Part shown: positions 9,560-28,629 of the stretch, piece by piece | How the letters are laid out: each line of letters begins with the position of its first letter | Numbering within the stretch: the first letter of the stretch is position 1 | From: Gammaproteobacteria bacterium | Lineage (GTDB): Bacteria; Pseudomonadota; Gammaproteobacteria; SZUA-152 | NCBI GenBank assembly: GCA_029882975.1 | Contig: JAOUJW010000017.1 | Location: 70,250-103,468, forward strand | Direction: 5' to 3' | DNA: 33,219 nucleotides | Position numbers and translations under genes: made by a program | The notes under the pieces: generated by a model | Databases searched by the model: none | The model's input: the letters and a program-made list of their open reading frames with translations, nothing else | What the model was told of the DNA's origin: nothing

Positions 9560-11152
9560 TTACAATTCCAATCGTAGACCCATGGACAAGCGTCGACTAC
9601 TGGTGTAGTCCTTATCCAAAACCGTACCCAATTGCACAAAACCGGTGCTGCCGCCGGGCAGTATAATGCTCATACCCAGGCCCAGTTTTAAATAGTCCGT
9701 ATCCGGCAGATTGGAATCAAAGGCAAATCGGGTCTGAGTCGGGTCGGCATTAAAAAACCCCTGTACTTTACCCGCTTCTTCATTGAATTGATGTACCCAG
9801 TACAAATCCATCTGCGGCCGAATCACTGCTACCCCTGTGCTAATCGCATAACTCATGGACGTGCCCAGGATGGTCTTGGCTTGATTGCTCTCTCGGTCGT
9901 CTATGGTAACGGCAAACAGAGAATTGCCTTGCTCAATATAACCGTCAATGTTGGTTTTAGTATACTCTGCTTTAAAATCCAGACTCATATTAAACGCCCC
10001 GCTTTGGGCTAAATTTACGCCGGATTCCAAACGAAGGGCTACCGATGTGGCATCGTTTTGACTACTGACCAAATCATCAAAGGTTCCAAAAACTATCCGC
10101 CGTTCCGACTCAAATCTGGTAAAATTGGCGCTGATAATAAAGTCCACATAAGTTTCCTGAGTGGGATAGTAACTGCCATAGGCAATTACGCTGTTTGACA
10201 GCGCCTCCAGCCCACCCATTTCATACAACACATCGGTACTGGTTTTGGATAAACCCCACGCCAGCCCCACTACGCCTGAGTTCAAACGCAGATCCAGGCC
10301 GGTGGACACGGTGCCGGTAAAAAAATCAAAACCGTCTTCGTACAGGGTTTCTTCCTGCTCACCATTGCTGATATCTCCGTTGATAAACCAGGACAATGCA
10401 TTTCCCCCACTACCGGCGGCACCCCCGCTTTGGGTTCCCTTTAATAGTTCTGCCAATTGTATGTTTTTGCTATCCAGCCTAAAGCTCAATCCACCTATCG
10501 CAACTTGTTGCTGCGTGTTTCTAAGAGCCGCTAAGTGGCGTGTAATATTATTCAGTTGTGCAGTAGCCAATAACTCGTCCATGGAACCCTGTGCAGCCAC
10601 GTCTTCCGGAGTTAATGCTCTTATTAAAATTCGCCTGTCTTCGCTGCCTGCCGCTGTGGTTGCCAGTATGGTACATAGGGTTAACAAATCTCCCGTTTGA
10701 GAACCCAGGCACAAGGTATTTTCCAGCATATTCTCCACTTCTACCGCTGGAATCACGCCAACATTGCCTGCTTGACTCACATCCCCCACCCTAACAGTGA
10801 CGGTAGCTACTTCGGTAGCGCCTAAATCGTTCACCACCGAGTAATCAAAACTGTCCACCCCCACAAAAGCCGGGTCCGGTGTATACAAAACACAAGCATT
10901 GCTCAAGTCAGAGCAGGTAACCGCAACCGCCGTATTCCCCGCAGCCGGTGCGCTGGCCACTTGTACGTTTACCGTCGTGATATTGGTGATCACACCGTTT
11001 AAATCGATGGTGAGGGGGGCACCTTGGGCTGTTTTAACAGAGTGGTTGACAACGGTGGCGTGTAGCTGCGTAGAAAACAAAGTTAACGATGTCAACAAAA
11101 ATCCAACAACGGAACATTGGAAACATAACTGCCTGATTTTTCTAAATCGCAT
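9560..11152 (-). CDS. Outer-membrane beta-barrel (autotransporter-like) protein with Ig-like domain
   Basis: 530 residues. A signal peptide covers about 1-32 (Arg-Phe-Arg-Lys-Ile-Arg, then a hydrophobic core ending Gln-Leu-His-Ala). Residues about 34-122 form one bacterial Ig/cadherin-like module with the Tyr-Thr-Pro-Asp-Pro-Ala-Phe-Val-Gly-Val-Asp-Ser-Phe-Asp-Tyr strand typical of Big_9-type tandem domains. A linker with a Gly-Gly-Ala-Ala-Gly-Ser-Gly-Gly stretch leads into a C-terminal half of alternating amphipathic strands (about 255-530), like autotransporter barrels. The last residues, Met-Gly-Leu-Arg-Leu-Glu-Leu, alternate like a terminal strand but end in Leu, not the usual Phe/Trp. 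It starts 64 bp after the giant lipoprotein gene, with a GAGAG ribosome-binding site, so the two are probably one operon. Its passenger is far too small for an adhesin, suggesting a role with the neighbour. Confidence 0.8.
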   Translation of the reverse strand: MRFRKIRQLCFQCSVVGFLLTSLTLFSTQLHATVVNHSVKTAQGAPLTIDLNGVITNITTVNVQVASAPAAGNTAVAVTCSDLSNACVLYTPDPAFVGVDSFDYSVVNDLGATEVATVTVRVGDVSQAGNVGVIPAVEVENMLENTLCLGSQTGDLLTLCTILATTAAGSEDRRILIRALTPEDVAAQGSMDELLATAQLNNITRHLAALRNTQQQVAIGGLSFRLDSKNIQLAELLKGTQSGGAAGSGGNALSWFINGDISNGEQEETLYEDGFDFFTGTVSTGLDLRLNSGVVGLAWGLSKTSTDVLYEMGGLEALSNSVIAYGSYYPTQETYVDFIISANFTRFESERRIVFGTFDDLVSSQNDATSVALRLESGVNLAQSGAFNMSLDFKAEYTKTNIDGYIEQGNSLFAVTIDDRESNQAKTILGTSMSYAISTGVAVIRPQMDLYWVHQFNEEAGKVQGFFNADPTQTRFAFDSNLPDTDYLKLGLGMSIILPGGSTGFVQLGTVLDKDYTSSRRLSMGLRLEL

Positions 11153-11216
11153 AATGACTCTCTATTCCTGCATAATTAGTTACAACCCTGCTCCGGCACA
11201 AGATTTTTTTCCAAAC

Positions 11217-14200
11217 CTAGAAATCATCGGAAACCCAAATTCGTGGTGTTTGTGGATCTGCAACAAACTCAGCATCCGGTTGAGACCATATAGCGCTATA
11301 ATTGGAACCACTGGGAGCAAGATAGATATTTGTTACGGCGGTTCCTTTATTTTCAAGCAGCAGCGATCCTGTCCATTCATTGGATTCATATTTTGCAAAA
11401 GCTGCATTGCCGGCAATACCCCCTATTACCGCGTATCCGTTGCCATTGGATTGTGTAATCGGTCTTACTATCGGGACCATGTTAGGAACTGTGTGTGAAG
11501 TCCAGTTGCTACCATCAAACAAAGTTGCCTGATAATCGGTAACACCCCAAACCATGTTATACCCAAACCCATTGGAGGCACTGTGTATTGGCGTCGTCGC
11601 CGCCACGGCGCCTGGTGCTGTAACCATAGTTTCAGCACTCCAGGATGGGCTTGTAAACCTGGACGTATACAAATCACTGGAAACCCAGGTAGCAAGAAAA
11701 TCGCTGCCAACTGACGTAATGTGATTGCGGAATGCATTTGTTAATTGATACGTAGAAGCGCCGGTTTCTATGGTGCTGATTCGAGTACTTGGCGTCCAGG
11801 TCCCCGCATTGTAAGTGGCAGCGTACTGACTTGCGGAATAAGTTGTAGACGTTGGCTGTTCCCACCAATTGACCGCAAAACCACCCAATCCGCCGGTAAT
11901 TTTAGGAAAGGCAAATCGACTGTTATAGGCACGAGTAATGGGTAATGTTTCGATCTGCCCCCATATTCCGGTTGCAGAATTTAATAGTCGAAACTTGGTC
12001 CCGCTACCCGGATATACGACTGCGTAGTCAGTACCATCTGATGCCAGAATGTTTGGCCCAGCGTAATAGGTAGTCACTCTGTCAGCGCTAAAAGTAAATA
12101 TACTATCTGACGTTAAAGTGCTGCCGTTTAAATAGTACCCAATGACATCGGAGCCACTTTTACAGACCATCATAAAGCTGTTGCCGTTTGTCGCGATATG
12201 TACATTGTTATTTCTGAGTGTACAAGAATCCAATAACTGCGGTGGCTGCCATGTACCTGTTTCGTTCATACTGTAGTAAACACGATCAACTCCCACATCA
12301 CTGGTTTGTCGCCAGACTGCCACTTTAACACCGGCATCGTTAATTGCAATTTGGGGCGCTGTAGCTGCACCTCGACTTACCGGCGGCATGAAGTCTATGC
12401 CAGACCGCGTCCACGCAGGAGGTACTATTGACATGTTTATACGTGAACCAAAGTATGCCTGCCCAATACCATCTTCCTGGCGCCAAAATGCCGTAAACCC
12501 GTTATCCACTGGCACCAAGCTGTGGCGAAAATTTTGCGATGCAATGCTGCTGGTATCTAATTGACTGACACCATACCAACGCCCAGCGTAGGAAACTGCA
12601 TTAAGTGATGTATCCGGCCATCCCTGTTGCCAGATAATTGCGTAGTTAGAACCATTGACTTCTAAGGTAAGCCCCGTTAACAGCGCAGACGTATCAATCG
12701 GTGATGCGACCGTACTGACCCAGCCTTGTCCGGCGTTACTAGCGACATACAGAGCCCCTCCTGCTCCGTAGGCAATATGATACCCACTGGCATCTACTAC
12801 TACATCAGACAAAGTAGATCCGCCAATCGATTGGGGGGTTCCCCAACGGCCTTGTTGAAAAATATTCGAAACCCAGGTTCCATTTTGAGCCCAAAAGGCC
12901 GCGAATCCGCTTGGTGAACTTATCAGCCTGGGATAAAGGCGGTTGCCCGCCGTGGTGTCGTCCAAATTCGCGGTATTCGCGGCGCTGGAACCGTCATTGA
13001 TATAGATTCTGCGCCCATCACTCCACAACATGGCGTAACCGTTAGCATTTCCTGCCAGAATATAGTCCAACAATCCCGAGAAATTCACTAACAAATCAAT
13101 ATTGGTACCCCACGTTGCTCCATCGTGGACTTTTCCAATCAAGTTGACAGATTCATCCGTCAGGACATTGATCTCTTCCCACATGACAGCAAAACCTGTC
13201 CCGTTACTTGCCAATGAGATAGATTCAATCAATCGATCGAAATCCAAATGAATTTGGGATGGAGTACTCCATGTATCATTTGTTGGATCGTAAGACTTGA
13301 AATTTACAATGTAGCCATCTGTGGTAACCATTCCGATTAAGTCACCTTCACTGGCCACGGAAAAACTCCGCTGCAGAAAATAGCCGTGGTTGGTTGCGTC
13401 TGTAAATACCCCGCGGGAATAGAATTTGGTAAAAATTTGCCGTCGATCTGTGACACTGGAGCTACCGTCTGCATAAACCACCAACAGTCCAGCTGCACTT
13501 TCATAGAACTGGATGCTGGCGGCATACCCCGCGAATACTTGCGGATCAGACCAAACACCGGATAATGCATTATATATGCGATAGTAACTCGTATACGTAT
13601 CGAGGTTACGCTCAGTCCAAATGTGAAAAATATTTCCATTGGAGGCCTTATAATGGGTGTCTGCAAAGTCAACAATATTGGCATAAGTTTCCGAACTGAT
13701 AACCTGAGGCGCATTCATAACTGTTACGGGCCACTCTATGCTTACAAGCGTGCTTGCTCCTGAGAAATTTGCTACGGTCCCAGTAAAACTGGCCAAATAA
13801 CTCGCACCGTAGTTCAATTGAACTTCTGGTGTAAAAATCACTTTATTGTCTATCACATTGACCGATCCAGGAACCGGTGCAGCACCACCTTGTAAGGTGA
13901 AATCAGTTCCAGTAACTGAGTTGGGGTCTATGGCTTGATCGAACACCAGAGAAAATGTTTGATTTAGTGCAGCTTGGGAATAATCGCTAACAGGCCGTGT
14001 CGATTGTAAGCTTGGACCGGACCCAATAATAAACGGTTCTGTATTTAATGTCGTACCGTTTATGCTTATCACAAAGTTATCCGTACCACGATTTGCTGCA
14101 AGATAAGACGCAGTGTACTCACCCTGTTGCGGATTAGCCACCAACAGCGATTGTTCATTGGCACTACCTGTTGCCATCAGCATTACGACATCTACATCCA

Positions 14201-17200
14201 TTGGGTTTGACAATGCATCCCTAACAGAAAGCACCAGATCCACGTTGGTACCCGCTGACACCGGGCTGGGCGGTGTAGTGGTGAACGCACTAGAAGCCAG
14301 CACTTCGCTCAGCGGAATCACGCCAATGGATTTTAGCCCATTGAGATCCGTTCGAATGGAATCGCTAATGATAACGGCAATAGTAAAATCTGTAGAATAC
14401 CCTGAACCAGGGGTCAGAAATACATTAGACAATGCAACATTCACATCTGCAGGCATTCCCACTAGGCTTAGAACCCCCGTTATCGGGTTAAAATCTATCG
14501 TTACTCCGGGCACCGCATCCGCTTGCAACGTGCCTGCTGCCACATCCGAAAGGGTTAACGTAACCGTAGTGGAAACCGGCGTTATATCCGACGTGGTCAG
14601 CTCTAATGGCGTTAAACCAAAAGCAGAAGAATTTTCCACTAAGGTCTCCACCGCGTTAATACCATTAGCAGTTAGAGTTGCACTGAGGACGTTTCGACTA
14701 TAGGGGCTCGCCTCCACTATAACCGCATCAACATAGACATTGATTGTCTCTGTACCGACGTTAGTAGGAGTATATTGAATGGAGTAAACCCCCTCTCCCG
14801 ATAGTGCTCCAACAAAGTTTTGACCTGAAATATTAAATGCTACCGCTGCATTTGCCGGATTGCCGAAAACATCGCTTACGGTCACCGACAAATCAACCGG
14901 CTGATTCTGTATATAAGGCCCAACGGGTATATTGGGAGCACTATTGTTTGGATCCGCCGCTGCGGCGACAATGTTTTTACTGTAACTGCCGGATATTGTG
15001 AAAGGTACGCTGTTGATTTCCACTGCAATATCGTAGGTATCCAGTCCGGCAATTTCCGGCGTATAACTGATACTATAGGTGCCATTTAAATTATCCGTTG
15101 CCGACAATGGAGCGACGATTGTCAGGGCTTCATTGGCCCCTGCAATATTCATTGTCACAATATCGCCGCCTATGGCTTTTGCAGTTCCGTTGGCATCTCG
15201 AATGGTGACCGTTATATTAATTGGTGTACCTGCGACCACATCCGCAGAGGGTGTGATACTGGCACTGGTTTGCGTTGGATCCACCGTCATTGGATTGACT
15301 GTCCAATTAAAGTTGGTTGTAACCTGTGCGTTAGGTGCCCCGCTAAGGTCATCCACAGTCACCACGACCGGATAAGGACCATCCAACGATGCCGTAAGAT
15401 CGATGGCTCCGGTAATCTGACCTGTGACCGTATTGATATCCAAACCTGCCGGTAAACCGGCGGCACTATAGCTGAGTGTCGCTGACTCTATATCGGTAGC
15501 AGATGCATCTATATTGACTACATCTCCATCGACACTTGTGCGATCGGGTAACAAATGATTGAACACCGGTGGGTCGTTTTGTGCCGTTACCGAGACAATC
15601 TTGGTGCCGTTCACATTCAACGTGGCATTGGTCACCACCACTGTGATGTCGAAGCTAGTGTCGTGGTTCGCCCCCGGGGTAAAGGTCGTCGCTGCCAAAG
15701 CGGTGTTCACGTTGGCCGGAGCGCCGTCGGCTTGAACCAATCCCGCGGCTCCCGCAGTAATAGTAACTCCTGCGGTGACGGGGATGGTTATGACGCCTGC
15801 CGTTGCCACTGCCGGTTGCAGGGACACGCTTACATTTGCATCGGCTGTCACTACAATGGGGGCCAGTGTGAATGCCGGGCCGTCTTCGATGAACGCTTCA
15901 GCGGTATTAACACCGGTGGCGCTTAATACGTCCGGCACATTGGTCACAGTGATGGTGAAGCTTCTTTCCACAAACAAGCTGCCCTGGTCTGTGGCGCGCA
16001 CACTGATGCTGTGGCTGGTATTGGTTTCAAAGTCTAACAAACTGCCATTAGCCACTTGCAGTTGATTATCGACAATGGCAAAACGACCACCGGCATCGTT
16101 GTTGGGACCCACAAAGCTATAGGTATGCGTATCCCCTGCCGTGTCCACGCTGCTCAATGTTCCTATAACCGTATTATCAGCACTGTTCTCGGCGATACTG
16201 CTGTTGCTCAGATTGATGTCTGTGGGGGCTGTGTTGTCGCTGGTAACAGTCCAGGTGATACTTCGGTTTGCTACTTCATTGGGTACACCTTGGTCGTTGA
16301 CGCTGAGGTCAACGGTGTAGGGGCTGCCCAAAGATGCGGTGGCTCCCAGTGTGCCGGTGATTTGCCCCGTTCCGGAGTTGATAGCCAAACCCGCAGGTAA
16401 GCCCGTGGCGCTGTAAAACAAGTTGGGACCGTCCACATCTGTGGCACTGGCGTCCACGTTAACTGGTGTGCCTTCCAGATGGATCTGATCACCTAATCCT
16501 GTATTAAACACCGGGGCGTCATTCACCGCCGTGACTGCCATGTTTTTGGTTCCGGTGACATCCGGTAAACCGCTGCCACTGACGGTCACGCCGATACTGA
16601 AGTTGCTGTCGTAATTTTCCGCTGGGGTAAAAGTTGTTGTTGCCAAAGCGGTGTTCACGTTGCTTGGGGCACCACTGGCCGTCCACTCACCCGTACCTGC
16701 GTTGCTGTTGATTACCACACCCGCAGTGGCCGGGATAAACAAATTACCGGCTGCTGTTGTTGATGGCGACAACGACACGGTCACGTCCGCATCGGCTGTT
16801 ACAACAATAGGCAACAGTGTAAAGGTTGAGGCATCTTCAATGAAGCCTCGCGCTGCATTGATACCGATCGCACTCAATACGTCCGGCACATTGGTCACAG
16901 TGATGGTGAAGCTTCTTTCCACAAACAAGCTGCCCTGGTCTGTGGCGCGCACACTGATGCTGTGACTGGTATTGGTTTCAAAGTCTAACAAACTGCCATT
17001 AGCCACTTGCAGTTGATTATCGACAATGGCAAAACGACCACCGGCGTCGTTGTTGGGACCGACAAAGCTATAGGTATGCGTATCCCCTGCCGTGTCCACG
17101 CTGCTCAATGTTCCTATAACCGTATTATCAGCACTGTTCTCGGCGATGCTGCTGTTGCTCAGATTGATGTCTGTGGGGGATGCGTTAGCACTGCCAATGG

Positions 17201-20200
17201 GTAAGGTGTAAGGACTGGACCCAATGGCCATTGTATCCACCAGGATGCTGACAAAATCATCGCCTGGGTTCAGCGGAGTATATTGCGTAGTGTACAAACC
17301 GCCACCTTGGGCAATGGCTGTCAGACTTGTCGCATTAACCCCTGTGATGTTCACCTGAACATTGGCGCTGGCGGCATTGCCATAGCTGTCTCTCACGGTG
17401 GCCGATATGGCGATGGCTTGCCCTTCGATGTAGGGACCGGCTGCTATGGTAGCGCTGCTGTTGGCCGGATCGGCTGCTGCTGCCACTATATTTCTACTGT
17501 ATGTACCTGTCAGGCTTTGCGGTGTTCCGCTAATATCCACCGTGATGTCGTAGCTATCGGTTCCCGCAACTGTGGGAGTGTAACTGATGCTGTAGCTACC
17601 ATCATTGTTGTCTGTGGCCCAGATGGAACTCGACGCCGTCAATGCCGCGTTGGCTCCGCTGATGTTCAAACCGACGATGTCGCCGCCAACGGCTTTAGCT
17701 GTACCGCTGGTATCTCGGAGGGTGATGGTAATGTTAACCGTGCCGCCTGCTGTTATGGGTGTGGCCGGTTCAATTATGGCGCTGGACTGCGCGGGATCCA
17801 CTCCAACCGGGTTAACTGTCCAATTAAAGGAAGCCGAGGTCTGGGCGTTGGCTGCCCCGCTTAAGTCATCCACGGTGATGGTCACCGCATAAGGGCTGTT
17901 TAGTGAGGCGGTAGCCGTCAAGGTGCCGCTGACCAGGCCCGTGGCGGTGTTGATGTTTAAACCCGGTGGTAATCCGATGGCGCTATAGGATAAGGTCGGG
18001 CTTTCCACATCGCTTGCTCCGGCATCCAAAACTATCGGCGCTGCATCAATGTCGCTGCGATCGCTTAATACCGTGTTAAAGGCCGGGGCATCATTAATGG
18101 GATTTACACTGATATTGATGACAATGCTGTCCGCGCCGCCGCGCCCATCGCTCACTTGAATTTCAAATTGATCGCTTTGATCAAAGTTCGGGTTCACTGC
18201 GTAGCTGACAATAGCACTGTTGCCATTACCGTTGACTCCGGCTACACCATGGCTCGCGGCGGTCGATACGCTCCAGCTCAGAGTGTCTCCGTCGTTGTCG
18301 ATGGCATTCAACAGTATGTTGATGGGGTCGGCATCCTCGTCAATGCTGAGGTTATGCGTCGCGCCTTGTTGGATTTGCGGTATTTGATTAGCCTGGCTCC
18401 GGGGTGTGCCGCTGACCGTGACCGACACCGGTCCGCTTTGCAGACTGCCTCCCGGTCCCTGTTGGTTTTGGGCGCTTACCCGGTAGTACACCGGAACATC
18501 GTTACCCAGCCCCGTGTGTTGATACTGTGTGTTGGGTGCTATAACGGTGGCGCTGTTGATGGTGCCCTGCAGTTCGTTGGCCGCGTTGACTTCCAATGAC
18601 CATTCCACCTGATATTGACTGGCGCTGGTTTCCGCTTGCCAATGTACCGTGTTTTGTCCGTTGCCCGATTCCACTCGCATACCTTGGATCTGACTCGGTA
18701 ACAGTCCCCGTGGACTGGCACTGGCCGGTAATGACGGGACACTTTCTTGCGCTGCAGTGACTGCCGTCACCACGTAGTAGTAGGCTTGTCCGTTGGTCAA
18801 ACCTCGATGGGTAAAGGAGCTTATGGCGATATCGGCAATTAAAGTACCCCCAGTACCTACTCCGGGTGTGGTGCTCCAATATACATTGTAGCTAAACGGT
18901 CCTGTGCCCTGCTCTGGAGGCATCCAATTGAGGATAACCCGTCCATCGACCCCTTCTGCCCGCAGTGCCTGCGGGGCTGTGGCAACTATGGCTTGCGCCA
19001 TGGCACTGACTTCTGCGCTGGGCGGACTTTCCCCACCGGCATTGTTGGCGGTGAGTTGATAACGATAGATTGTACCGTTGCTAAGCCCGTTTATTATATG
19101 TGTGGGACGAACATTGCTGATGAGGTTTCCGCTGCTGATCGGTTGTACCATCGGATTCGTATCTGTGGTCCAATACAGGTTGTAGGTGACCCCGTTTTGC
19201 GTATTCCAGTCCAAACTGATTTGCCCATCCCCAGGCGCCGCGCTGAATCCATCCGGGCTGGCGGGAGCTGCGGGCTCCGGTATGGCCGCCACCGAATTGC
19301 TTGGAGCACTGGGGCCCCCCTGATTGTGTGCTTGCACCGCAAAATGATAGATGGCCCCATTGTTCAGCCCATCGATTATGGTGCCACTTTGCACCCCGAC
19401 ACGTCGGGACCAGTTGGTCAAGGGTTGGGCATTGCCAGGTTCCATAGCCCAATACAGGGTATAGCTGTTGGCCGTAGCAACGTTCGGCCATTGCACTTGT
19501 ACTTGGCCATCACCGGCGACTGCTGTTAGGTTGGCGGGCTGTGAAGGCGGATCGCTTTGCGGCATGGCAACGGTAAATTCCGACAGGCTGCTTTCCCCTC
19601 CTGCGTTTTGAGCCGCCAGGCGATAGTAATACACCTGGCCGTTGCTCAAGCCGCTGTGTACATAGCCACTTTGCACCTCCGGGCCACTGATTCTCGCTCC
19701 AAGTGAGGGATCAATGTCCGCGCTGGTAGACCAATACAGGACATAACTATCGGCGTCCGCCACGGGCGTCCAGTTGATCGTTACCTGGGAGTCCTGGGCG
19801 CTTGCCGCGACCGTCACCGGTGGCGCTTGGGGTGGGGCCGGTTGCGGACTGGCGCTGAATTCACGGGTGTATTGACTTTCGCCGCCTGCCGTGACGGTGG
19901 TCAATCGAAAATAGTAGCTGTTTCCATTACTGTTGCCCCCATCTGTGAATACATGACCGGGCAAAATATTGGCGGTAACCTGTTGTCCGCTGCGACTGCC
20001 ATCGCTGCGCTCTCGTATCCAGTAGAGGTTGTAAGCAGCCGGACCTTGTGTGGCTTCGGTAAAATGGATAATGACCTGGTTATCCCCTGCTTCCGCCCAG
20101 GTATTGCTGGGCATAGCCGGTACAGGCGCTTGCGGGATGGCCCATACTTGATCACTTCCGCGGCTTTCTCCACCACTATTTACTGCTGTGACTATATAAT

Positions 20201-22034
20201 AGTAACGAATGTTGTTTTGTAAGCCGGTGTGGTTCACTTGCCAGAATACATTGCCTTGGCTATCCGTTACCTGGGTATAGTTGGGATCGCCGTTGGCATC
20301 CAATGCCGGTATCAAACTTCCATTGGCGACTGACACGCCGGCTTGTTGTCGATAGTACAGACGGTAGCCTGTGACAACTTCATCCGGGTCCGCCGGGTTT
20401 TGAGCCTGAGCTTCAGGCCAACGGATCAGTACTCTTGCTGCTCCCGGTTCGGCATATATAGCCATCGGTGCATTCGGCGGCGGCTCTTTGGGGATCGCTT
20501 CTACGGCTTGGCTGCGTGCACTTTCACTACCGCCATTCATCGCGGTCACTTGTATGCGGTAACGCCGGGCATTGTTCAAACCGCCACTATAGTTGCCGGC
20601 ATTGATGATTAACGGCGACTGCACCGGCGCGATTCGCTGCTCCGGCCCGGGCACAGTATCTGTCACGTCCCGAATGTAGACAACATATTCACTTGCCTGA
20701 CTCACCGGCAACCAATGCAATCCAATGCTTTCGTCACTGCCGGAAGCGCTCAAGCCCGCCGGTACACCCGCAATGATTTGTTCCGGGCTGCCGTTGACTT
20801 GTACCGACAAGTCGCTTTCTCCGTTGGCGTTGACGGCACTGACGGCATATCCGTACTGGGTACCATTGTTGAGTTGAATATGGGTATAGGGGCTTTGCAC
20901 GGCGGCAATTTTGTTGTCGGCTTTGCTCACCGTTCTGCTGCCGGATACCCAATAGATGTTATAGGCTTGTGCGTTCGCGGCACTATCCCAACTCAGACTC
21001 AGTTGGCCGTTTTCCACCCGCAGCGAAATATTGCCCGGGACTCCCGGCACAGCCCCCACAACAGCTACGTCTACCGTACCCGGCAGTTGGGCATGTATCG
21101 TGTTCGACAGGGCACTGACGCCGCGACCGTTGCGAGCCCTGACCTTATAGTAATAATTCTGTCCGGCGCTTAAGGGGCCATGAGTGTACGGGCTGCTGAC
21201 CGAATCGATCACCGCGGAGTCTTCACTCACGTCATCGACATTGCTCCAATAGATGTCGTATTGGATATTTACATCCGATGCTGCACTGTGCCAATTTAAT
21301 TGAACCGTGTCGGCAGTTATAACCGCGTTTTCCATTACCGGAGCAATGGGAATCGCTTCCAATGGCTGGGCGGTATGGACCTCAGAAACCACTCCCATTC
21401 CGACGTCGTTTTCAGCCACTATAATATAGTAGTAGCTTTGGCCGTTTTCTAAATCGCTGTGAACAAACGGCGATTCCACATCGTGTATTCGGTTATCGGC
21501 AGGACTTACCGATGCACTATAACTCCAATAAATGCTGTAAGAAGTCGCCCCCGGTACCGCGTCCCAACGCAGTCGCACCCGTTGATTTTCCGATTTAGCT
21601 TCGATTCCTTGAACCGCCGTCGGTATCGCCGCTTGTGGCCTTGCGCTGACCTGACGTGAAGGATAGCTTTCCCCTCCGTAGCGCTTGCTGGTTATAACAT
21701 AATAATAAGTCAGTCCATTGGATAACTCGGTGTGACTGAGATGCGGTTCTACCGTGTCGATCGGTGATCCATTCTGGGGGGTAACTCCGGGCTGATTGGA
21801 CCAATACACCGTGTAACCGTCCGCACCGGGTACACCGGACCAGCTAATATCTACAGCACGCGTACCCGCTACAACAACAATGTTTTGTAGGGAGCCTTTT
21901 TGTGAAGGATCATTTGCATCGTCTGGTTCACTGCCGCAGGCGTTTATCAGCAAACTCAAATTTGCCAGCAACAGTAATCTCCAGATTACCAACCATGAAT
22001 TCAAACCAAAGTTGGATAAATACGACCCCGACAT
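11217..22034 (-). CDS. Giant multidomain surface lipoprotein (Fn3, cadherin/Ig-like, propeller-like)
   Basis: About 3605 residues. The ATG at 22034 is preferred to one five codons upstream because AGGGG precedes it. The N terminus is a lipoprotein signal with lipobox Leu-Ile-Asn-Ala-Cys. Residues about 50-1210 form twelve fibronectin type III modules, each with a Tyr-x-Ile/Leu-Tyr-Trp strand and a Tyr-Tyr-Tyr / Gly-Gly-Glu-Ser ending. About 1215-2680 hold cadherin-like modules (Asp-Gly-Asp, Ala-Glu-Asn, Asp-Phe-Glu motifs), dystroglycan/He_PIG-type modules (Gly-Leu-Pro-Ala-Gly-Leu) and Ig/filamin-like modules. About 2680-2780 resembles a Big_5 Ig-like domain. The last ~830 residues repeat a Gly-Tyr-Ala-x-x-Trp motif, like beta-propeller blades. 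This architecture suggests adhesion or matrix binding at the cell surface. No frameshift is seen. Confidence 0.9.
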   Translation of the reverse strand: MSGSYLSNFGLNSWLVIWRLLLLANLSLLINACGSEPDDANDPSQKGSLQNIVVVAGTRAVDISWSGVPGADGYTVYWSNQPGVTPQNGSPIDTVEPHLSHTELSNGLTYYYVITSKRYGGESYPSRQVSARPQAAIPTAVQGIEAKSENQRVRLRWDAVPGATSYSIYWSYSASVSPADNRIHDVESPFVHSDLENGQSYYYIIVAENDVGMGVVSEVHTAQPLEAIPIAPVMENAVITADTVQLNWHSAASDVNIQYDIYWSNVDDVSEDSAVIDSVSSPYTHGPLSAGQNYYYKVRARNGRGVSALSNTIHAQLPGTVDVAVVGAVPGVPGNISLRVENGQLSLSWDSAANAQAYNIYWVSGSRTVSKADNKIAAVQSPYTHIQLNNGTQYGYAVSAVNANGESDLSVQVNGSPEQIIAGVPAGLSASGSDESIGLHWLPVSQASEYVVYIRDVTDTVPGPEQRIAPVQSPLIINAGNYSGGLNNARRYRIQVTAMNGGSESARSQAVEAIPKEPPPNAPMAIYAEPGAARVLIRWPEAQAQNPADPDEVVTGYRLYYRQQAGVSVANGSLIPALDANGDPNYTQVTDSQGNVFWQVNHTGLQNNIRYYYIVTAVNSGGESRGSDQVWAIPQAPVPAMPSNTWAEAGDNQVIIHFTEATQGPAAYNLYWIRERSDGSRSGQQVTANILPGHVFTDGGNSNGNSYYFRLTTVTAGGESQYTREFSASPQPAPPQAPPVTVAASAQDSQVTINWTPVADADSYVLYWSTSADIDPSLGARISGPEVQSGYVHSGLSNGQVYYYRLAAQNAGGESSLSEFTVAMPQSDPPSQPANLTAVAGDGQVQVQWPNVATANSYTLYWAMEPGNAQPLTNWSRRVGVQSGTIIDGLNNGAIYHFAVQAHNQGGPSAPSNSVAAIPEPAAPASPDGFSAAPGDGQISLDWNTQNGVTYNLYWTTDTNPMVQPISSGNLISNVRPTHIINGLSNGTIYRYQLTANNAGGESPPSAEVSAMAQAIVATAPQALRAEGVDGRVILNWMPPEQGTGPFSYNVYWSTTPGVGTGGTLIADIAISSFTHRGLTNGQAYYYVVTAVTAAQESVPSLPASASPRGLLPSQIQGMRVESGNGQNTVHWQAETSASQYQVEWSLEVNAANELQGTINSATVIAPNTQYQHTGLGNDVPVYYRVSAQNQQGPGGSLQSGPVSVTVSGTPRSQANQIPQIQQGATHNLSIDEDADPINILLNAIDNDGDTLSWSVSTAASHGVAGVNGNGNSAIVSYAVNPNFDQSDQFEIQVSDGRGGADSIVINISVNPINDAPAFNTVLSDRSDIDAAPIVLDAGASDVESPTLSYSAIGLPPGLNINTATGLVSGTLTATASLNSPYAVTITVDDLSGAANAQTSASFNWTVNPVGVDPAQSSAIIEPATPITAGGTVNITITLRDTSGTAKAVGGDIVGLNISGANAALTASSSIWATDNNDGSYSISYTPTVAGTDSYDITVDISGTPQSLTGTYSRNIVAAAADPANSSATIAAGPYIEGQAIAISATVRDSYGNAASANVQVNITGVNATSLTAIAQGGGLYTTQYTPLNPGDDFVSILVDTMAIGSSPYTLPIGSANASPTDINLSNSSIAENSADNTVIGTLSSVDTAGDTHTYSFVGPNNDAGGRFAIVDNQLQVANGSLLDFETNTSHSISVRATDQGSLFVERSFTITVTNVPDVLSAIGINAARGFIEDASTFTLLPIVVTADADVTVSLSPSTTAAGNLFIPATAGVVINSNAGTGEWTASGAPSNVNTALATTTFTPAENYDSNFSIGVTVSGSGLPDVTGTKNMAVTAVNDAPVFNTGLGDQIHLEGTPVNVDASATDVDGPNLFYSATGLPAGLAINSGTGQITGTLGATASLGSPYTVDLSVNDQGVPNEVANRSITWTVTSDNTAPTDINLSNSSIAENSADNTVIGTLSSVDTAGDTHTYSFVGPNNDAGGRFAIVDNQLQVANGSLLDFETNTSHSISVRATDQGSLFVERSFTITVTNVPDVLSATGVNTAEAFIEDGPAFTLAPIVVTADANVSVSLQPAVATAGVITIPVTAGVTITAGAAGLVQADGAPANVNTALAATTFTPGANHDTSFDITVVVTNATLNVNGTKIVSVTAQNDPPVFNHLLPDRTSVDGDVVNIDASATDIESATLSYSAAGLPAGLDINTVTGQITGAIDLTASLDGPYPVVVTVDDLSGAPNAQVTTNFNWTVNPMTVDPTQTSASITPSADVVAGTPINITVTIRDANGTAKAIGGDIVTMNIAGANEALTIVAPLSATDNLNGTYSISYTPEIAGLDTYDIAVEINSVPFTISGSYSKNIVAAAADPNNSAPNIPVGPYIQNQPVDLSVTVSDVFGNPANAAVAFNISGQNFVGALSGEGVYSIQYTPTNVGTETINVYVDAVIVEASPYSRNVLSATLTANGINAVETLVENSSAFGLTPLELTTSDITPVSTTVTLTLSDVAAGTLQADAVPGVTIDFNPITGVLSLVGMPADVNVALSNVFLTPGSGYSTDFTIAVIISDSIRTDLNGLKSIGVIPLSEVLASSAFTTTPPSPVSAGTNVDLVLSVRDALSNPMDVDVVMLMATGSANEQSLLVANPQQGEYTASYLAANRGTDNFVISINGTTLNTEPFIIGSGPSLQSTRPVSDYSQAALNQTFSLVFDQAIDPNSVTGTDFTLQGGAAPVPGSVNVIDNKVIFTPEVQLNYGASYLASFTGTVANFSGASTLVSIEWPVTVMNAPQVISSETYANIVDFADTHYKASNGNIFHIWTERNLDTYTSYYRIYNALSGVWSDPQVFAGYAASIQFYESAAGLLVVYADGSSSVTDRRQIFTKFYSRGVFTDATNHGYFLQRSFSVASEGDLIGMVTTDGYIVNFKSYDPTNDTWSTPSQIHLDFDRLIESISLASNGTGFAVMWEEINVLTDESVNLIGKVHDGATWGTNIDLLVNFSGLLDYILAGNANGYAMLWSDGRRIYINDGSSAANTANLDDTTAGNRLYPRLISSPSGFAAFWAQNGTWVSNIFQQGRWGTPQSIGGSTLSDVVVDASGYHIAYGAGGALYVASNAGQGWVSTVASPIDTSALLTGLTLEVNGSNYAIIWQQGWPDTSLNAVSYAGRWYGVSQLDTSSIASQNFRHSLVPVDNGFTAFWRQEDGIGQAYFGSRINMSIVPPAWTRSGIDFMPPVSRGAATAPQIAINDAGVKVAVWRQTSDVGVDRVYYSMNETGTWQPPQLLDSCTLRNNNVHIATNGNSFMMVCKSGSDVIGYYLNGSTLTSDSIFTFSADRVTTYYAGPNILASDGTDYAVVYPGSGTKFRLLNSATGIWGQIETLPITRAYNSRFAFPKITGGLGGFAVNWWEQPTSTTYSASQYAATYNAGTWTPSTRISTIETGASTYQLTNAFRNHITSVGSDFLATWVSSDLYTSRFTSPSWSAETMVTAPGAVAATTPIHSASNGFGYNMVWGVTDYQATLFDGSNWTSHTVPNMVPIVRPITQSNGNGYAVIGGIAGNAAFAKYESNEWTGSLLLENKGTAVTNIYLAPSGSNYSAIWSQPDAEFVADPQTPRIWVSDDF
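15925..16228 (-). repeat. 304-bp direct repeat, copy 1 (inside giant gene)
   Basis: Encodes a cadherin-like module (with Ala-Glu-Asn-Ser-Ala-Asp and Leu-Asp-Phe-Glu-Thr) at about residues 1941-2042. It matches 16876-17179 with four base differences, all silent. The two copies are 951 bp apart, which keeps the frame. Confidence 0.92.
16876..17179 (-). repeat. 304-bp direct repeat, copy 2 (inside giant gene)
   Basis: Partner of 15925-16228, encoding the identical cadherin-like module at about residues 1624-1725. The DNA between the copies encodes related but clearly diverged modules, so the near-identity is confined to this segment. Confidence 0.92.
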
Positions 22035-22049
22035 GATTGACCCCTGCAT

Positions 22050-22365
22050 TTGGAAAGAAAGAATTTTGAAAGTTTATTGATTGCGATATTCACGCGATAA
22101 TATCATAGCGATATAGCAGAAAAATAATTATGGTAATATGCACACGATTATATACGTTAACATAATATAGACCCGGCATTTTATCCTTTAATCAGGTTTA
22201 AAACCGTCTCCACTTGGTATACTTTTCGCGACTGTTTTTTTGCTTCAGGTTATAGAACGTCACCGCAGTATGGCACCCGCATAAGCCATATTAATTGTAG
22301 GTATAATATTAGATATTGGTCATTTATTAATCAAGCCGAGAGGATTTGAAGACAATCAGAAAAGA
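22050..22365. other. AT-rich spacer upstream of giant gene
   Basis: A 316-bp stretch without a supportable gene, notably richer in A and T than its surroundings. It contains three GCGATA repeats (about 22083, 22095, 22108) close to the giant gene. The promoter of that gene must lie here or further right, beyond tRNA-Val, but several AT-rich boxes compete and none could be chosen. No terminator hairpin for tRNA-Val was found in it. Confidence 0.5.
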
Positions 22366-22442
22366 TGGTAGGCACGACTGGACTCGAACCAGCGACCCCT
22401 ACCATGTCAAGGTAGTGCTCTAACCAACTGAGCTACGCGCCT
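22366..22442 (-). tRNA. tRNA-Val (anticodon GAC)
   Basis: A 77-base cloverleaf on the minus strand. The acceptor AGGCGCG pairs with CGTGCCT (one G-U) and is followed by A and an encoded CCA. The D-arm is GCTC...GAGC. The anticodon stem CTACC/GGTAG carries loop TTGACAT, giving GAC. The T-arm loop is TTCGAGT. It is monocistronic as far as can be seen and has its own near-consensus promoter just upstream. Confidence 0.97.
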
Positions 22443-22990: not shown

Positions 22991-23557
22991 TTACTTACCG
23001 TTTAGAGGCAATGAATGGGCTATACCTTTATGGCAGTCGATACAGGTCAGTTTTTCATCAAAGCCCTTAATGTGTTGCTTATAAGCACGACGACTTTGGG
23101 CAGGATAATCCATAGAAGTGAAATCATGACAATTACGACATTCTCGCGAATCCGTACGTTTCATAGACCGCCATACGTTTTCGGCTAACTGGCCACGCTT
23201 AGCTTCGAATTTTTCCTTGGTGCTGATACTACCCAGGATTTTATGAAAGACCTCGTTGCTGGCTTGAATTTTCCGTAGCATTTTGTAGGTCCATTCCTTG
23301 GGAACGTGACAATCGGGACACGTCGCCCGCACGCCGGTACGGTTGTTGTAGTGAATGGTGTTTTGGTATTCCTTATACACAAACTCACGCATTTCATGGC
23401 AGCTGATACAGAAAGATTCCTTGTTAGTGGCTTCCATCACGGTGTTAAAACCGCCCCAAAACACAATGCCGCTCGCAAATCCCACTGTCAGCAACATCCC
23501 CAAAGAATATTTGCTGCTGGGACGCAGCAACAGTTGTTTCAATTGTTCTACGTTCAT
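22991..23557 (-). CDS. napC: NapC/NirT tetrahaem c-type cytochrome
   Basis: A 188-residue membrane-anchored cytochrome that passes electrons from quinol to NapAB. One N-terminal helix (about 18-38, Ser-Leu-Gly-Met-Leu-Leu-Thr-Val-Gly-Phe) anchors it in the inner membrane. Four CxxCH haem sites lie in the periplasmic part: Cys-Ile-Ser-Cys-His at 50-54, Cys-Pro-Asp-Cys-His at 80-84, Cys-Arg-Asn-Cys-His at 140-144 and Cys-Ile-Asp-Cys-His at 172-176. Size and spacing fit NapC. AGGGAAAG precedes the ATG. It follows napB by 13 bp and is the last gene of the visible nap operon. Confidence 0.96.
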   Translation of the reverse strand: MNVEQLKQLLLRPSSKYSLGMLLTVGFASGIVFWGGFNTVMEATNKESFCISCHEMREFVYKEYQNTIHYNNRTGVRATCPDCHVPKEWTYKMLRKIQASNEVFHKILGSISTKEKFEAKRGQLAENVWRSMKRTDSRECRNCHDFTSMDYPAQSRRAYKQHIKGFDEKLTCIDCHKGIAHSLPLNGK

Positions 23558-23570
23558 CTTTCCCTACTTG

Positions 23571-24050
23571 TTATTGCAAAGATTTAACCGGCTCAAATTG
23601 GTTTTTCACCAGTGGTTGGGCATTGACCTGGGGTACATGACACTGCACGCAAAAATAGCGTCTAGGTGCCACCTCAGACAGCTCGTTTCCATCACGGTCT
23701 TTGAAATGAGTCATACTGATTTTTGTCGCACCGGAACGTTTGGCATTTTTCCAACTGTGGCAGAGCAAGCATTTGTTGGAACGCAAATCGATTTTGTAGC
23801 CTTGAATCCGATGAGGAATTAGGGGTGGTTGTTGCACGTAGTTGCGCTCCAATACATCCGTGTCTCCGCTTTGGCGTTTCAGTTCCGGAGCATTCAAGGT
23901 AGAATCGATTTCCTTGTCACCACGTAGAGATTTTACGCCTCCGGTGTTAGCCAGGCTTACCGGTACGACAACACAGGTCAAAACACCACCCGCAATCAGC
24001 CATTGTTTCAATTTGTTCATGATCGTTTGCCTTTTTGCTAATTTCGTCAT
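23571..24050 (-). CDS. napB: Periplasmic nitrate reductase dihaem subunit
   Basis: 159 residues from the first ATG. A second ATG ten codons in (24018-24020) gives a cleaner signal peptide (Met-Asn-Lys-Leu-Lys-Gln-Trp-Leu-Ile-Ala, cleavage near Ser-Leu-Ala) and has AAGGC upstream, so it may be the true start. The mature protein carries two haem motifs, Cys-Leu-Leu-Cys-His (94-98) and Cys-Val-Gln-Cys-His (134-138), plus the conserved Pro-Pro-Leu-Ile-Pro-His segment. NapB accepts electrons from NapC and hands them to NapA in the periplasm. It lies between napA (26 bp upstream) and napC. Confidence 0.95.
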   Translation of the reverse strand: MTKLAKRQTIMNKLKQWLIAGGVLTCVVVPVSLANTGGVKSLRGDKEIDSTLNAPELKRQSGDTDVLERNYVQQPPLIPHRIQGYKIDLRSNKCLLCHSWKNAKRSGATKISMTHFKDRDGNELSEVAPRRYFCVQCHVPQVNAQPLVKNQFEPVKSLQ

Positions 24051-24076
24051 ATTGCTCTTGGGTTAACTATTGTCCG

Positions 24077-26575
24077 TTACACCCGCTCCAACTTAACCGC
24101 ACATTTTTTGTAATCGGTTTGTTTGGAGATAGGACAGGTGGCATCCAAAGTCACTTTGTTGATCAATACGCTGGCGTCAAACCAGGGCACGAACACCACG
24201 CCCTGCGGCGGGCGATTGCGCCCACGGGTTTCCACCGTAGCTTTGATTTCGCCTCGACGCGATGCCAGGCGCGCTTCCATACCCCGTTTTAAACCGCGTT
24301 TTTTGGCATCCTTCGGGTGCATATAAATCAGGGCATCCGGTACTGCGCGGTATAATTCCGGAACTCGCCGAGTCATGGTACCGGAGTGCCAGTGTTCCAG
24401 TACCCGACCGGTTACCAGCCACAAATCGTATTCTTTATCCGGCTCTTCGGGCGCCGGTTCATAGGGCAAAGCAAAGATCCAGGCCTTACCATCCGGTTTA
24501 CCGTAGAATTCAACACCCTTGCCTTTGGCGACATAAGGGTCATATCCTTCGCGAAACCGCCATTGCGTTTCTTTTCCATCCACCACAGGCCAACGTAAGC
24601 CGCGTACTTTGTGGTAAGTGTCAAAGTCCGCCAAATCGTGGGCTTTGCCCCGACCAAAACTGGCATACTCTTCAAACAGGCCTTTTTGGATGTAAAAACC
24701 GAAGTCCTTGGCTTCGTGGTTTTCCGTTTCCTTATTGGCCTGACTCAGCGGGAATTTGTTCACATTGCCGTTCTGGAACAAAACCTGGAACAAGCTTTTG
24801 CCGCGTAAGGACGGTTCCTGATCCAATAACTCCTTAGGCCAGACTTCGTCGGTTTTAAAGCGCTTGGACAATTCCACAATCTGCCACATATCCGATTTAG
24901 CCTCGCCTGGAGGCGGGACTTGCTGATACCAGAACTGGGTGCGGCGTTCCGCGTTACCATAAGCGCCCTCTTTCTCCACCCACATGGCTGTGGGCAAAAT
25001 TAAGTCGGCCGCTTGGGCTGTTACGGTAGGATAAGCATCAGAGACAACGATAAAATTGTCCGGATTGCGGTAGCCGGGATAGGTTTCTTCATTGAGGTTG
25101 GCTGCCGCCTGCATATTGTTGTTACACATAACCCAATAGAAATTCATATCACCGTCTTTGAGTTTGCGGTTATGCAAAACGGCATGAAAGCCCGGTTTAC
25201 CCACAATAGTGCCCTTGGGCAATTTCCAGATTTTTTCGGCGATTTCCCGATGCTTTTCGTTTTTCACCACCATATCCGCGGGCAAGCGATGGGCGAAAGT
25301 ACCTACTTCGCGGGCAGTACCGCAAGCGGACGGCTGACCGGTCAAAGAGAAAGGCCCGTTACCGGGCTCGGAGATCTTGCCGGTTAACAGATGCAAATTA
25401 TAAATAAGATTGTTTACCCAGGTTCCGCGGGTATGCTGGTTCACACCCATGGTCCAGAAAGACACCACTTTGCGTTTGGGATCGGCGTAAAGCTCTGCCA
25501 GCTTCTTCAAATCTTTCTTGGGCACACCGGAAATCTCATGGGCCTTTTCCAAGGTATAGGAAGAAACAAATTTTCTGAATTCATCAAAAGAACTGGGCTT
25601 GGAACCGCCGGCTTTGTCTGCGTTCTTGGCATTTTTCTGTTTTTCGTGATCGGGACGCAGGCCATAACCGATATCGTCATTGCCCATGCGGAAGTTCACG
25701 TGCTGGTTAATAAAGTCTTTGTTTACAGCATTGTGTTGAATGAGATAGTTTGCAATATAGTTGAGGATGGCCAAGTCGCTTTGGGGTTTAAACACCATAC
25801 CCACATCAGCCAAATCAAAGTTACGATTCTCAAAGGTGGACAACACGGCCACTTTGACATTTTTATTGCTCAAACGCCGTTCGGTTACGCGGGTCCACAA
25901 AATAGGATGCATTTCCGCCATATTGGCGCCCCACAACACAAAGGCATCCGCGTGTTCGATATCGTCATAACACCCCATGGGCTCGTCAATACCGAAAGTA
26001 CGCATGAACCCCGCCACCGCCGAAGCCATGCAATGTCGCGCGTTGGGCTCAAGGTTATTGGATCGAAAACCGGCTTTCATGAGTTTGACCGCCGCATAGC
26101 CTTCCCAAACCGTCCATTGCCCGGAACCGAACATACCCAGTGCTGTCGGACCTTTGGCTTTCATGGTGGTTTTTATTTTTTCCGCCATAATATCTAACGC
26201 GGTTTTCCAACTGACGGGAGTAAAAGTCCCGTTCTTGTCGTATTTGCCATCGGTCATACGCAACAGGGGTTTTTGCAGACGATCTTCCCCATAGAGTATT
26301 TTTGGCAAAAAGTACCCTTTGACGCAGTTCATTCCACGGTTAACCGGAGATTCCGGGTCCGCTTGGGAGGCCACCACTTTACCGTTCTGAGTACCCACCA
26401 TGACGCTACAACCCACGCCACAAAATCGACAAGGCGCTTTATCCCAGCGAATTTTTTCATCAGACTGCGGTGATTTGGACTTGGCAAATACCGATTGGGT
26501 CACAAGGGACAAGGATGATAGAGCTAAAGGCACAATAGAATTTAATTTTAAAAAATGTCTGCGTGAAAATTTCAT
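24077..26575 (-). CDS. napA: Periplasmic nitrate reductase catalytic subunit
   Basis: An 832-residue Mo-bisMGD enzyme reducing nitrate to nitrite in the periplasm. The ATG at 26575 is chosen, not the longer open frame (57 codons more), because GAGG precedes it and it begins the Tat signal Ser-Arg-Arg-His-Phe-Leu-Lys. Cys49, Cys52, Cys56 and Cys84 bind the [4Fe-4S] cluster (Cys-Arg-Phe-Cys-Gly-Val-Gly-Cys...Asn-Cys-Val-Lys-Gly). Cys182 in Arg-His-Cys-Met-Ala-Ser-Ala is the Mo ligand. The C-terminal molydopterin dinucleotide-binding domain is complete. It heads napABC. No napD chaperone gene precedes it in the window. The 267 bp between it and the divergent HPP remnant shows only an FNR-like half site (TTGAT) and no full box. 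Confidence 0.98.
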
Positions 26576-26842
26576 AGCTGCCTCAATATTGTGTAAACGG
26601 ATTAGATTTTCTCGGTGGGTTAATGCACGAAAAATTCCAATTAATCTGAGTGGAACACTGGGTTTTATCCCTAACAAATGTATGGCAAAGGCATTTTCGG
26701 CCCAAACGTCGGTTTCCTTTAATAACCCGGCGGCAGTATTACGCACAAAATCAAATCAAAGAACCTGTCTGTGTTGGGGAATGTGCAGAGCTGTTTAAAT
26801 GTAAAAGGTGTGCAAAATTTTTTGGAGGATAGAGCTGTCAAT

Positions 26843-27412
26843 ATGCAAATTCCCGGCCTTTGGATTTATACGGACCGTGAACACCTTCCATAACATCGGC
26901 AACGGATTCAATCACCGAGAGAAGTTCATATGTGTACTCGGCGGTAATGCGGGCATACTCTGCGTATACTATATAAGCACCTGGGTTGTTGGATTGGAAA
27001 ACGCAAGTTATATCATTCCTTCGATGGGCGCATAAACCATATTGATCTTTGCTGTGCCCGAAAGAGCCCCCTGGGGAAACCGTGGAATGTATTCGGTGGT
27101 CATATTCTTTCAGCCATCGCCGGTGTCACGTGTGCCTCACTCATTCCCATAGAGGGTGTCGCAATCGAAGCCGAACCAATTACTGAGGAGCAAAAACGTA
27201 TATACGCTTTCCAATATCCCGATACGGTTTCCAAAAACACTCAATTACCTGAGCTTACAAACCGCATACTAACTACCCGCCGACGGCAAAGCACCTACGC
27301 CCTCGCAGACTCAAGAGTCGGGTTACTAGAGCGGGGTTACTTAAGTTTTGTTTTCCTCATATCGTTTTCTTGGTACGTACAATCTGGTATGCGCGTCCAA
27401 GATAACCTATAG
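26843..27412 (+). pseudogene. Decayed HPP-family membrane protein gene (putative nitrite transporter)
   Basis: Three pieces in two frames make up an HPP-like protein. A possible ATG at 26843 (GGAGG upstream) shifts frame within about 20 bases. The next frame carries His-Arg-Glu-Lys-Phe-Ile-Cys-Val-Leu-Gly-Gly-Asn-Ala-Gly-Ile-Leu and Ile-Ile-Pro-Ser-Met-Gly-Ala, then a TAA at 27033-27035, then Thr-Ile-Leu-Ile-Phe-Ala-Val-Pro-Glu. A second shift near 27060-27066 leads to Ser-Pro-Leu-Gly-Lys-Pro-Trp-Asn-Val-Phe-Gly-Gly-His-Ile-Leu-Ser-Ala-Ile-Ala-Gly-Val-Thr-Cys. This is the HPP-family core. After 27133 the resemblance, including the expected His-Pro-Pro motif, is lost, though the frame stays open to 27412, overlapping the end of narI. 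HPP proteins are reported nitrite carriers, which suits the position between nar and nap. The gene is not functional as written. Confidence 0.75.
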
Positions 27413-28046
27413 GGGCACTCCAGATATGAACCAAACGTGTAAACGGAAAAAACAGAAATACTGACATGCCCACAAATATATGCAGCTTGTACACAATCGA
27501 GACGTCTCGAATTAAATCGGGGTTAGGTTGTAAATAGAGTATACTTTGCACCCAGTTTGCCAATAACACCATAACTGCCGGGTCTCCGGATTTCGCGTGA
27601 GAAATGGAAACCGGCAATGTAGCAAGACCCAGGGCAACGGTTAGTACTAACCAACCAAGTATATTGATATCCATCCAACGTGAAGCTGCACGTACTCGCC
27701 GGTTTAACATTCGCCGCAACCAAAGCACAACACCACCGATGAAACACATCGCCCCGAAAATCATACCGGCAGTTATTGCTGTCCACTGGTGCGCCATGTC
27801 AGAGACTCCAAGCGACAAGAACACCTGGTGAGGAGTCAGCAGGCCAGTGACATGGCCAAAAAACAAAGCAATAATTCCGATATGGAACATATTGCTGCCA
27901 AAACGCAGGTATTTCTTCGACAGTAACTGGCTCGAGTCGCTTTTCCAAGTGTATTGCTCGTGGTCAAATCGAATCCAGCTTCCCAGCAGAAAAACGGTTG
28001 TAGCGAAATAGGGGTAAACGCCGAAAATTAATGTGTGCAGGTCCAT
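27357..28046 (-). CDS. narI: Respiratory nitrate reductase gamma subunit (cytochrome b)
   Basis: 229 residues, the diheme membrane anchor that oxidises quinol and feeds NarH. The ATG at 28046 is preferred to a longer frame because AGGAGGAAAG precedes it and the product starts like NarI (His-Thr-Leu-Ile-Phe-Gly-Val-Tyr-Pro-Tyr). Five hydrophobic helices are visible. The haem b ligands are His55, His65, His189 and His207; their spacing matches E. coli NarI (56, 66, 187, 205). The upstream part of the open frame merely overlaps narJ. It is the last gene of narGHJI; no clear terminator follows, and the 3' end overlaps the antisense HPP remnant. Confidence 0.97.
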   Translation of the reverse strand: MDLHTLIFGVYPYFATTVFLLGSWIRFDHEQYTWKSDSSQLLSKKYLRFGSNMFHIGIIALFFGHVTGLLTPHQVFLSLGVSDMAHQWTAITAGMIFGAMCFIGGVVLWLRRMLNRRVRAASRWMDINILGWLVLTVALGLATLPVSISHAKSGDPAVMVLLANWVQSILYLQPNPDLIRDVSIVYKLHIFVGMSVFLFFPFTRLVHIWSAPIGYLGRAYQIVRTKKTI

Positions 28047-28056
28047 TCTTTCCTCC

Positions 28057-28572: not shown

Positions 28573-28629
28573 ATTATTCTCCTGCTACGGCTTGCTTGTG
28601 ACGATTTCTGTACAAACACCAAGTTTTTG

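Follow-up and report, generated by a model that had tools for sequence, protein, structure and literature searches.

Two adjacent genes at positions 9560–22049 of the window (the whole stretch of 33,219 nucleotides that was analysed) possibly constitute a two-gene surface-display unit, in which a passenger-poor type V barrel is paired with a separately encoded giant lipoprotein. We favour this reading tentatively. Both genes carry recognisable domains, the pairing of such genes recurs within the genome and in other genomes, and the partner lipoproteins share a conserved base while their distal parts differ. No pair of a passenger-poor autotransporter barrel and a giant lipoprotein was described in the literature searched, which lies largely outside subscription papers and preprints. 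The pairing suggests a route, so far undescribed, by which two genes together display giant proteins at the cell surface.

The giant lipoprotein and its neighbouring barrel gene

Features of the pair and its upstream neighbour, with positions in the window
Feature	Positions	Strand	Evidence
Giant lipoprotein gene, 3610 aa	11217..22049	minus	One unbroken ORF
Signal peptide and lipobox LINA|C (Cys38)	21936..22049	minus	Sequence; canonical boxes in related giants
Twelve Fn3 modules, residues 51–1215, conserved anchor-proximal stalk	18405..21899	minus	Pfam, hand split and comparison
Big_9, He_PIG, Filamin-like and Cadherin stack, residues 1216–2677	14019..18404	minus	Pfam
Cadherin module copy 1	16878..17177	minus	DNA near-identical to copy 2
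Cadherin module copy 2	15927..16226	minus	DNA near-identical to copy 1
Big_5 domain, residues 2678–2766	13752..14018	minus	Pfam
About 17 W-blade-like repeats (by eye), residues 2793–3610	11220..13673	minus	Profiles match 7–8
Partner gene, 530-aa short autotransporter-type barrel protein	9560..11152	minus	Pfam, model, Foldseek
Big_9 of barrel protein, residues 34–120	10793..11053	minus	Pfam; pLDDT 72–83 in model
Pre-barrel helical region, residues 148–212	10517..10711	minus	Helices in model, low confidence
12-strand barrel, residues 252–527	9572..10399	minus	PF03797; model strands; Foldseek
tRNA-Val (GAC), upstream neighbour of the pair	22366..22442	minus	

An earlier note on this DNA had described a lipoprotein of about 3600 residues, and the gene is indeed a single minus-strand ORF of 3610 codons. 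A start at the second Met would give 3605 aa, which explains the earlier end coordinate of 22034. The mature form has a computed mass of 373 kDa and a computed pI of 4.2. A Pfam search matched the Fn3 region with an E value of 7.2e-54 and nine stretches passed singly at E 0.1; division of the region by hand yielded twelve alignable modules, the number given before. Pfam also identified the modules behind what had been called a cadherin/Ig-like stack and a Big_5-like domain, namely a Big_9, three He_PIG, four Filamin-like stretches, two Cadherin and a Big_5. Their order after the Fn3 stalk is Big_9, He_PIG, two Filamin-like, Cadherin, a module without a match, He_PIG, Cadherin, another module without a match, He_PIG, Filamin-like stretches with an unmatched stretch among them, and Big_5. 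Segments 1720–1826 and 2040–2150 had no Pfam match at E 0.01, nor did segment 2445–2560 at E 0.05. Pfam found no RTX repeats in the giant of the kind that would place it among the RTX/LapA-type adhesins. In each of ten DNA blocks of the two cadherin modules 29 or 30 of 30 bases are the same while the flanks differ, which points to a recent duplication or conversion of this module.

The N terminus of the giant is a hydrophobic signal ending LLLLANLSLLINAC, and Gly-Ser-Glu follows Cys38. The lipobox is LINAC with Gly at +2 (no Asp), and its Asn at −2 lies outside the pattern [LVI][ASTVI][GAS]C quoted in the available passages of PMC8151025. Canonical boxes (LLTAC, LLSAC or GVSAC) occupy the matching place in related giants of this and other genomes. 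The Cys of the lipobox noted earlier would be Cys38. The giant is probably lipid-anchored, a putative outer-membrane lipoprotein with Cys38 as the predicted site of lipidation.

Support for the propeller-like end proposed earlier was weak. A blade profile built from other proteins only (C39 of the same genome, G004 and L122) scored 30.6 bits on the blade region of the giant and had no match in its Fn3 and middle regions; among 200 shuffles 52 gave any match, the best at 8.9 bits. On the other side, Pfam had no match in the blade region, and an AlphaFold2 model from a two-row alignment had a pLDDT of 31, which says nothing either way. Comparison with PDB by sequence returned matches to the blade region only at E 0.5 or worse, and none to a related 556-aa blade protein. 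The related blade array of G004 had a sub-threshold match to BNR_4 (E 0.023). Scored blade copies numbered eight in L122 and eight in one stretch of C39, with fewer in the other arrays, and a plain sequence search detected the blade region in none of the other 56 of the 57 near genomes. It is plausible that the end of the giant is propeller-like, perhaps as two propellers. C39 itself carries two consecutive giant ORFs of 4200 and 2421 aa (L051/L052) that have Fn3 matches and are not lipoproteins by eye; the second of these has at least 16 W-blade matches.

The barrel gene lies 64 bp downstream on the same strand, and no terminator-like site was found between the two genes. Its product matched PF03797 at 127.3 bits, against a gathering cut-off of 26 (E 1.2e-36), and comprises a signal peptide, a Big_9, a helical region and the autotransporter barrel; a Pfam scan of the protein yielded only PF03797, Big_9 and Cadherin_5. 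A structural model of moderate confidence (pLDDT 57) has twelve strands after a long helix at residues 183–212, with the Big_9 predicted fairly confidently. The best PDB matches to this model in Foldseek were AaaA, EspP, EstA, NalP and BrkA, the best at E 1.7e-9. Cys148 and Cys160 are invariant across 12 aligned barrels.

With only the Big_9 and the helical region before the barrel, the chain has no large passenger as a type Va protein would. Pfam found no SlipAM (PF04575), the mark of Slam, in the barrel protein, and no POTRA-bearing TpsB barrel or TPS domain, as in type Vb, in either protein. A genome-wide Slam search was silent, but so were 14 of 14 controls. The earlier note had stated that type I and two-partner components are missing next to the giant gene. 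By reading, none of the adjacent genes looks like a type I export component, in agreement with that statement, but the autotransporter-type barrel gene beside the giant had been overlooked.

The pair lies between tRNA-Val and thrS, in surroundings that by reading comprise tRNA-Val, thrS-infC and genes resembling those of nitrate reductase; by the same reading of labels it lies outside any type VI secretion cluster. Among 20 relatives with the thrS locus, the distance from tRNA to thrS was 862 bp in G010 and 124 bp in G016, and in the other 18 it did not lie within the stretch examined. An insertion of the pair between tRNA-Val and thrS is possible, the case for it being weak because the tRNA was near thrS in only these two. 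An Rfam match to HPnc0260 at 22267–22404 on the plus strand was set aside, as it overlaps the tRNA on the opposite strand. At 22991–33207 the window holds narGHJI-like genes, followed on the same strand by one that resembles napA and by two for c-type cytochromes (labels by reading).

Recurrence of the pairing

The genome has five PF03797 matches, all in short frames of 448–542 aa, and four of these adjoin a lipobox protein of 837–3610 aa (Fn3 giants and LRR lipoproteins). One is the pair under study on contig C17. On C41 the barrel lies 9 bp ahead of a 3298-aa Fn3/PKD/Big_2 lipoprotein, and C2 has two tandem pairs, in each of which 10 bp separate the barrel from an LRR lipoprotein (876 and 837 aa). 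The only unpaired barrel of the genome is on C22 (G000 C22 21272–32998, L046), where it lies between type VI secretion-like genes and cmoAB (labels by reading). Fn3 giants on C58 and C38 (2255 aa) have no barrel on the visible side, the 3′ side of each being cut off, and a further Fn3 giant on C38 (1833 aa) has none on either side, both of which were seen.

Barrel relatives turned up in 16 of the 57 near genomes (own genome included) and in at least 46 of 369 class genomes (own family included, with at most three candidates scored per genome); some of the class matches, mostly weaker ones, stand outside the sample compared below. A search with a 6-row barrel alignment gave 13 loci, mostly on contigs already in the sample. 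We compared 46 short and 18 fused barrels together with their surroundings, and a first tree was made of these 64; long fused relatives of the same family were omitted from it and from the counts. A second tree of 69 barrels added five long fused relatives (f1 family), L038 being left out by a motif filter. The first tree contains a clade of 21 barrels with support 99/98, in which no row is known to be fused. It still stands in the second tree (97/96), where the added fused relatives fall far from it. One barrel of the clade (L107) is truncated where its contig stops, and it may have a Calx-like passenger.

Within the clade 13 barrels adjoin a repeat-domain lipoprotein, 12 of them labelled before the first tree and one (L122) recognised afterwards; four with both neighbours visible have no such lipoprotein (C22, G007, G018 C50 and G023 C149), and the remaining four are at contig ends. 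A label for paired or fused barrels required 4 changes, whereas shuffled labels needed on average 12.4 in the first tree and 14.1 in the second, with 0 of 500 shuffles as low in each; unlabelled rows (28 and 27, respectively) were excluded from this test, and its rows are related. A second group consists of four barrels paired with lipoproteins of about 1300 aa, of which that of G004 is Fn3 and cadherin-like. Among the remaining 21 short barrels, two have such a partner (L106 and L130), one has a caspase-type lipoprotein (L111), and eight adjoin small lipobox proteins of 266–348 aa; because of these eight, lipoprotein genes beside short barrels are not special to the clade. Of the 18 fused autotransporters, two lie beside a lipobox protein of 700 aa or more, one being caspase-Sel1-like by eye; by reading, the neighbour of two more fused rows (L143 and L144) is 416 aa long and contains a lipobox-like string.

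A scripted rule counted as partner a lipobox protein of at least 700 aa encoded by the next gene of at least 150 aa. By this rule 16 of 46 short barrels (17 including those at contig ends) and 2 of 18 fused barrels had a partner, the background being 18 of 249 ORFs of 300–700 aa. The comparison of all short with fused barrels was not significant (p 0.07), and that of the clade with fused barrels was marginal (9/21 vs 2/18, p 0.037). With partners corrected by hand the latter became 13/21 vs 2/18 (p 0.002), and a comparison of 17/25 with 3/21 gave p 0.0003, under a looser rule that was applied to the short barrels while the fused group was assessed by reading only. The corrected total of 19 of 46 short barrels is the scripted count minus L111 (caspase-Sel1) plus L118 (479 aa, cut by a contig end), L151 (lipobox beyond the limit of the script), L063 (a 191-aa fragment at a contig end) and L122 (411 aa). 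All of these counts are not independent, since many pairs are orthologues from one family, and the p values overstate the differences because the rows are related, a weakness that the tree-based label test shares.

Gene order varies across the pairs, with the giant before the barrel, after it or divergent from it, and the pairing is kept. In genus g6 six barrels form one subclade without a visible partner, four of the six being at contig ends, and this may represent a single loss. Five of the g6 barrels (L058, L061, L148, L150 and L153) are mostly near pepP- and ubiH-like genes (by reading), and no giant lipoprotein adjoins a g6 barrel where both sides are visible. The C58 locus of the genome under study, with its Fn3 giant and no visible barrel, is related to that of g6. 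Long fused relatives were considered as Rosetta-stone fusions and rejected, as their passengers are Ig/Calx/Big_1-like by eye and unlike the giants; the short flanking stretches of seven such long fused frames showed no large lipoprotein neighbour and one small one.

The partner lipoproteins are of Fn3, LRR, Fn3+LRR and Fn3+TSP3 types. The Fn3 stalk is collinear over residues 1–1200 with four other giants that were compared, and the sequences diverge beyond; past residue ~1200 there are only weak cadherin and blade matches, to G004. Partners from one subclade have in common a domain of about 100 aa directly after the lipobox, which occurs in the LRR partners of this genome and in f101-family lipoproteins (E 4e-13 to 0.013), and the distal parts of the proteins that carry it differ. 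One of these f101 lipoproteins (G123, 825 aa) is encoded by the second gene from a barrel. A constant base with a divergent tip is what one would expect of proteins whose anchor-proximal part contacts a constant partner while the tip adapts.

Proposed display unit and alternative explanations

In the proposed display unit the giant would be exported by Sec with its lipoprotein signal peptide, lipidated on Cys38 and transferred to the outer membrane. It would be displayed outside as a long acidic stalk of 12 Fn3 and about 15 Ig/cadherin-like modules, and its propeller-like tip would probably bind a ligand. The 530-aa barrel would be a dedicated outer-membrane partner, which most likely helps the anchor-proximal part across the membrane or holds it there, so that the pair would resemble an autotransporter whose two parts have separate genes, or Slam and the lipoprotein it serves. 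We infer lipidation, surface location, physical partnership, translocation and ligand binding from the gene sequences and their neighbourhoods; export or holding of the lipoprotein by the barrel is a predicted role, and neighbouring genes are no proof that their products touch. The lipid-anchored stalk with a distal, possibly ligand-binding end that had been suggested earlier fits the repeat modules throughout, the mass of 373 kDa, and the conserved base with a changing distal part, but a propeller at the tip is plausible rather than proven. A bolder version is rather doubtful: a variant of type V secretion in trans, in which passenger-less barrels each export or surface-lock a separate giant lipoprotein via its conserved anchor-proximal region, leaving the distal modules free to change. 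Strict dependence of the giant on the barrel is counted against by giants without barrels and by solo barrels. Our confidence in the display unit fell slightly on account of the marginal result under the scripted rule and of the small lipobox proteins beside other barrels.

Instead of moving the lipoprotein, the barrel might serve as an outer-membrane anchor or stabiliser whose Big_9 binds the base of the stalk, the lipoprotein reaching the surface otherwise (e.g. by BAM). In its favour, the module after the Fn3 stalk is a Big_9 in the window giant and, judged by position, also in G004 and G015; the short barrels moreover keep the pre-barrel helix, such that the pore may already be plugged. 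We give this explanation a lower but real probability; against it, the C2 barrels lack a Big_9 and still have a lipoprotein partner, and in the C41 lipoprotein PKD modules rather than Big_9 come first after Fn3. A slightly lower but still real probability goes to the alternative that the two genes encode independent surface proteins that are co-inherited or co-regulated, the barrel then being a small autotransporter that displays one Ig domain. Barrels that stand alone and giants with no barrel in view would be expected in that case, as would the other lipoprotein kinds (small ones and caspase-Sel1) beside other barrels of the family. However, the pairing survives changed gene order and several lipoprotein types and clusters on the barrel tree, and the spacing in the C41 and C2 pairs is only 9–10 bp. 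Finally, the lipobox might go unused, with the giant periplasmic or released, which would suit the atypical Asn at −2; the canonical boxes at the matching place in related giants speak against this, a folded rod of about 27 modules would presumably exceed the width of the periplasm, and we regard it as highly improbable.

Comparison with known systems

The display unit that we favour resembles several described systems in part. According to the available passages of PMC9040878, TasL of Vibrio fischeri is a putative outer-membrane lipoprotein of more than 380 kDa with Fn3 repeats, for cell contact. Compared by description, TasL and the window giant are both very large putative lipoproteins in which Fn3 repeats occur and which are thought to extend away from the cell, but TasL belongs to a type VI secretion island and has five Fn3 near its C terminus. 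The word ‘autotransporter’ occurs 0 times in the TasL passages of that source. In the parts of PMC5449769 that were consulted, 185 of 353 Slam homologs adjoin a lipobox gene, and Slam substrates were extended by adjacency logic. The present pair likewise has an outer-membrane barrel gene beside a lipobox gene, with the same adjacency argument, but the barrel here is PF03797 and the partners are Fn3/LRR/Ig proteins, whereas those of Slam are TbpB-like barrels. Type Va autotransporters (AaaA, EspP, EstA, NalP and BrkA) share family and fold class with the present barrel, which differs in having no large cargo on the same chain; only a Big_9 precedes it, and in the C2 barrels nothing recognised.

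SadB is described in passages of PMC3953254 and PMC8151025 as a small inner-membrane lipoprotein that assists the trimeric autotransporter SadA. This is likewise a lipoprotein working with an autotransporter, but in the present pair it is the giant, cargo-like member that is the lipoprotein. As presented in passages of PMC12153261, BapP of Pseudoalteromonas tunicata combines a Big_9/cadherin-like stack and a propeller in one large surface protein, and the giant has a similar stack and a plausible propeller-like end; unlike the giant, BapP has an N-terminal propeller, a plain signal peptide and a putative type I system adjacent. Few routes of large lipoproteins to the outer face of the outer membrane are known, as listed in passages of PMC5449769, and passages of PMC8151025 describe the topology of lipidated type V proteins as undetermined. 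Being compact and recurring in several lineages, the two-gene pair is a directly testable system, and an in-trans type V variant, if true, would be a further dedicated surface-lipoprotein route beside Slam, Bam and type II secretion.

Several loci in the sample had further features. At L122 (G338 C101, 8147–13464) only 28 bp separate the barrel from an Fn3 lipoprotein of 411 aa; about 1 kb off, the other strand encodes a lipobox protein of 556 aa that has eight W-blades. The giant of G009 (L060/L065) is split into two overlapping frames and the barrel of G018 (L072/L148) into two ORFs, which reflects either assembly error or decay. In 8 of 40 barrel loci (L112, L117, L119, L120, L123, L127, L130 and L136) a motif scan detected a frame for a Ser/Thr protein kinase, and caspase-Sel1 lipoproteins adjoin barrels in G123 and G270; the kinase and caspase-Sel1 loci are possibly another conserved cluster.
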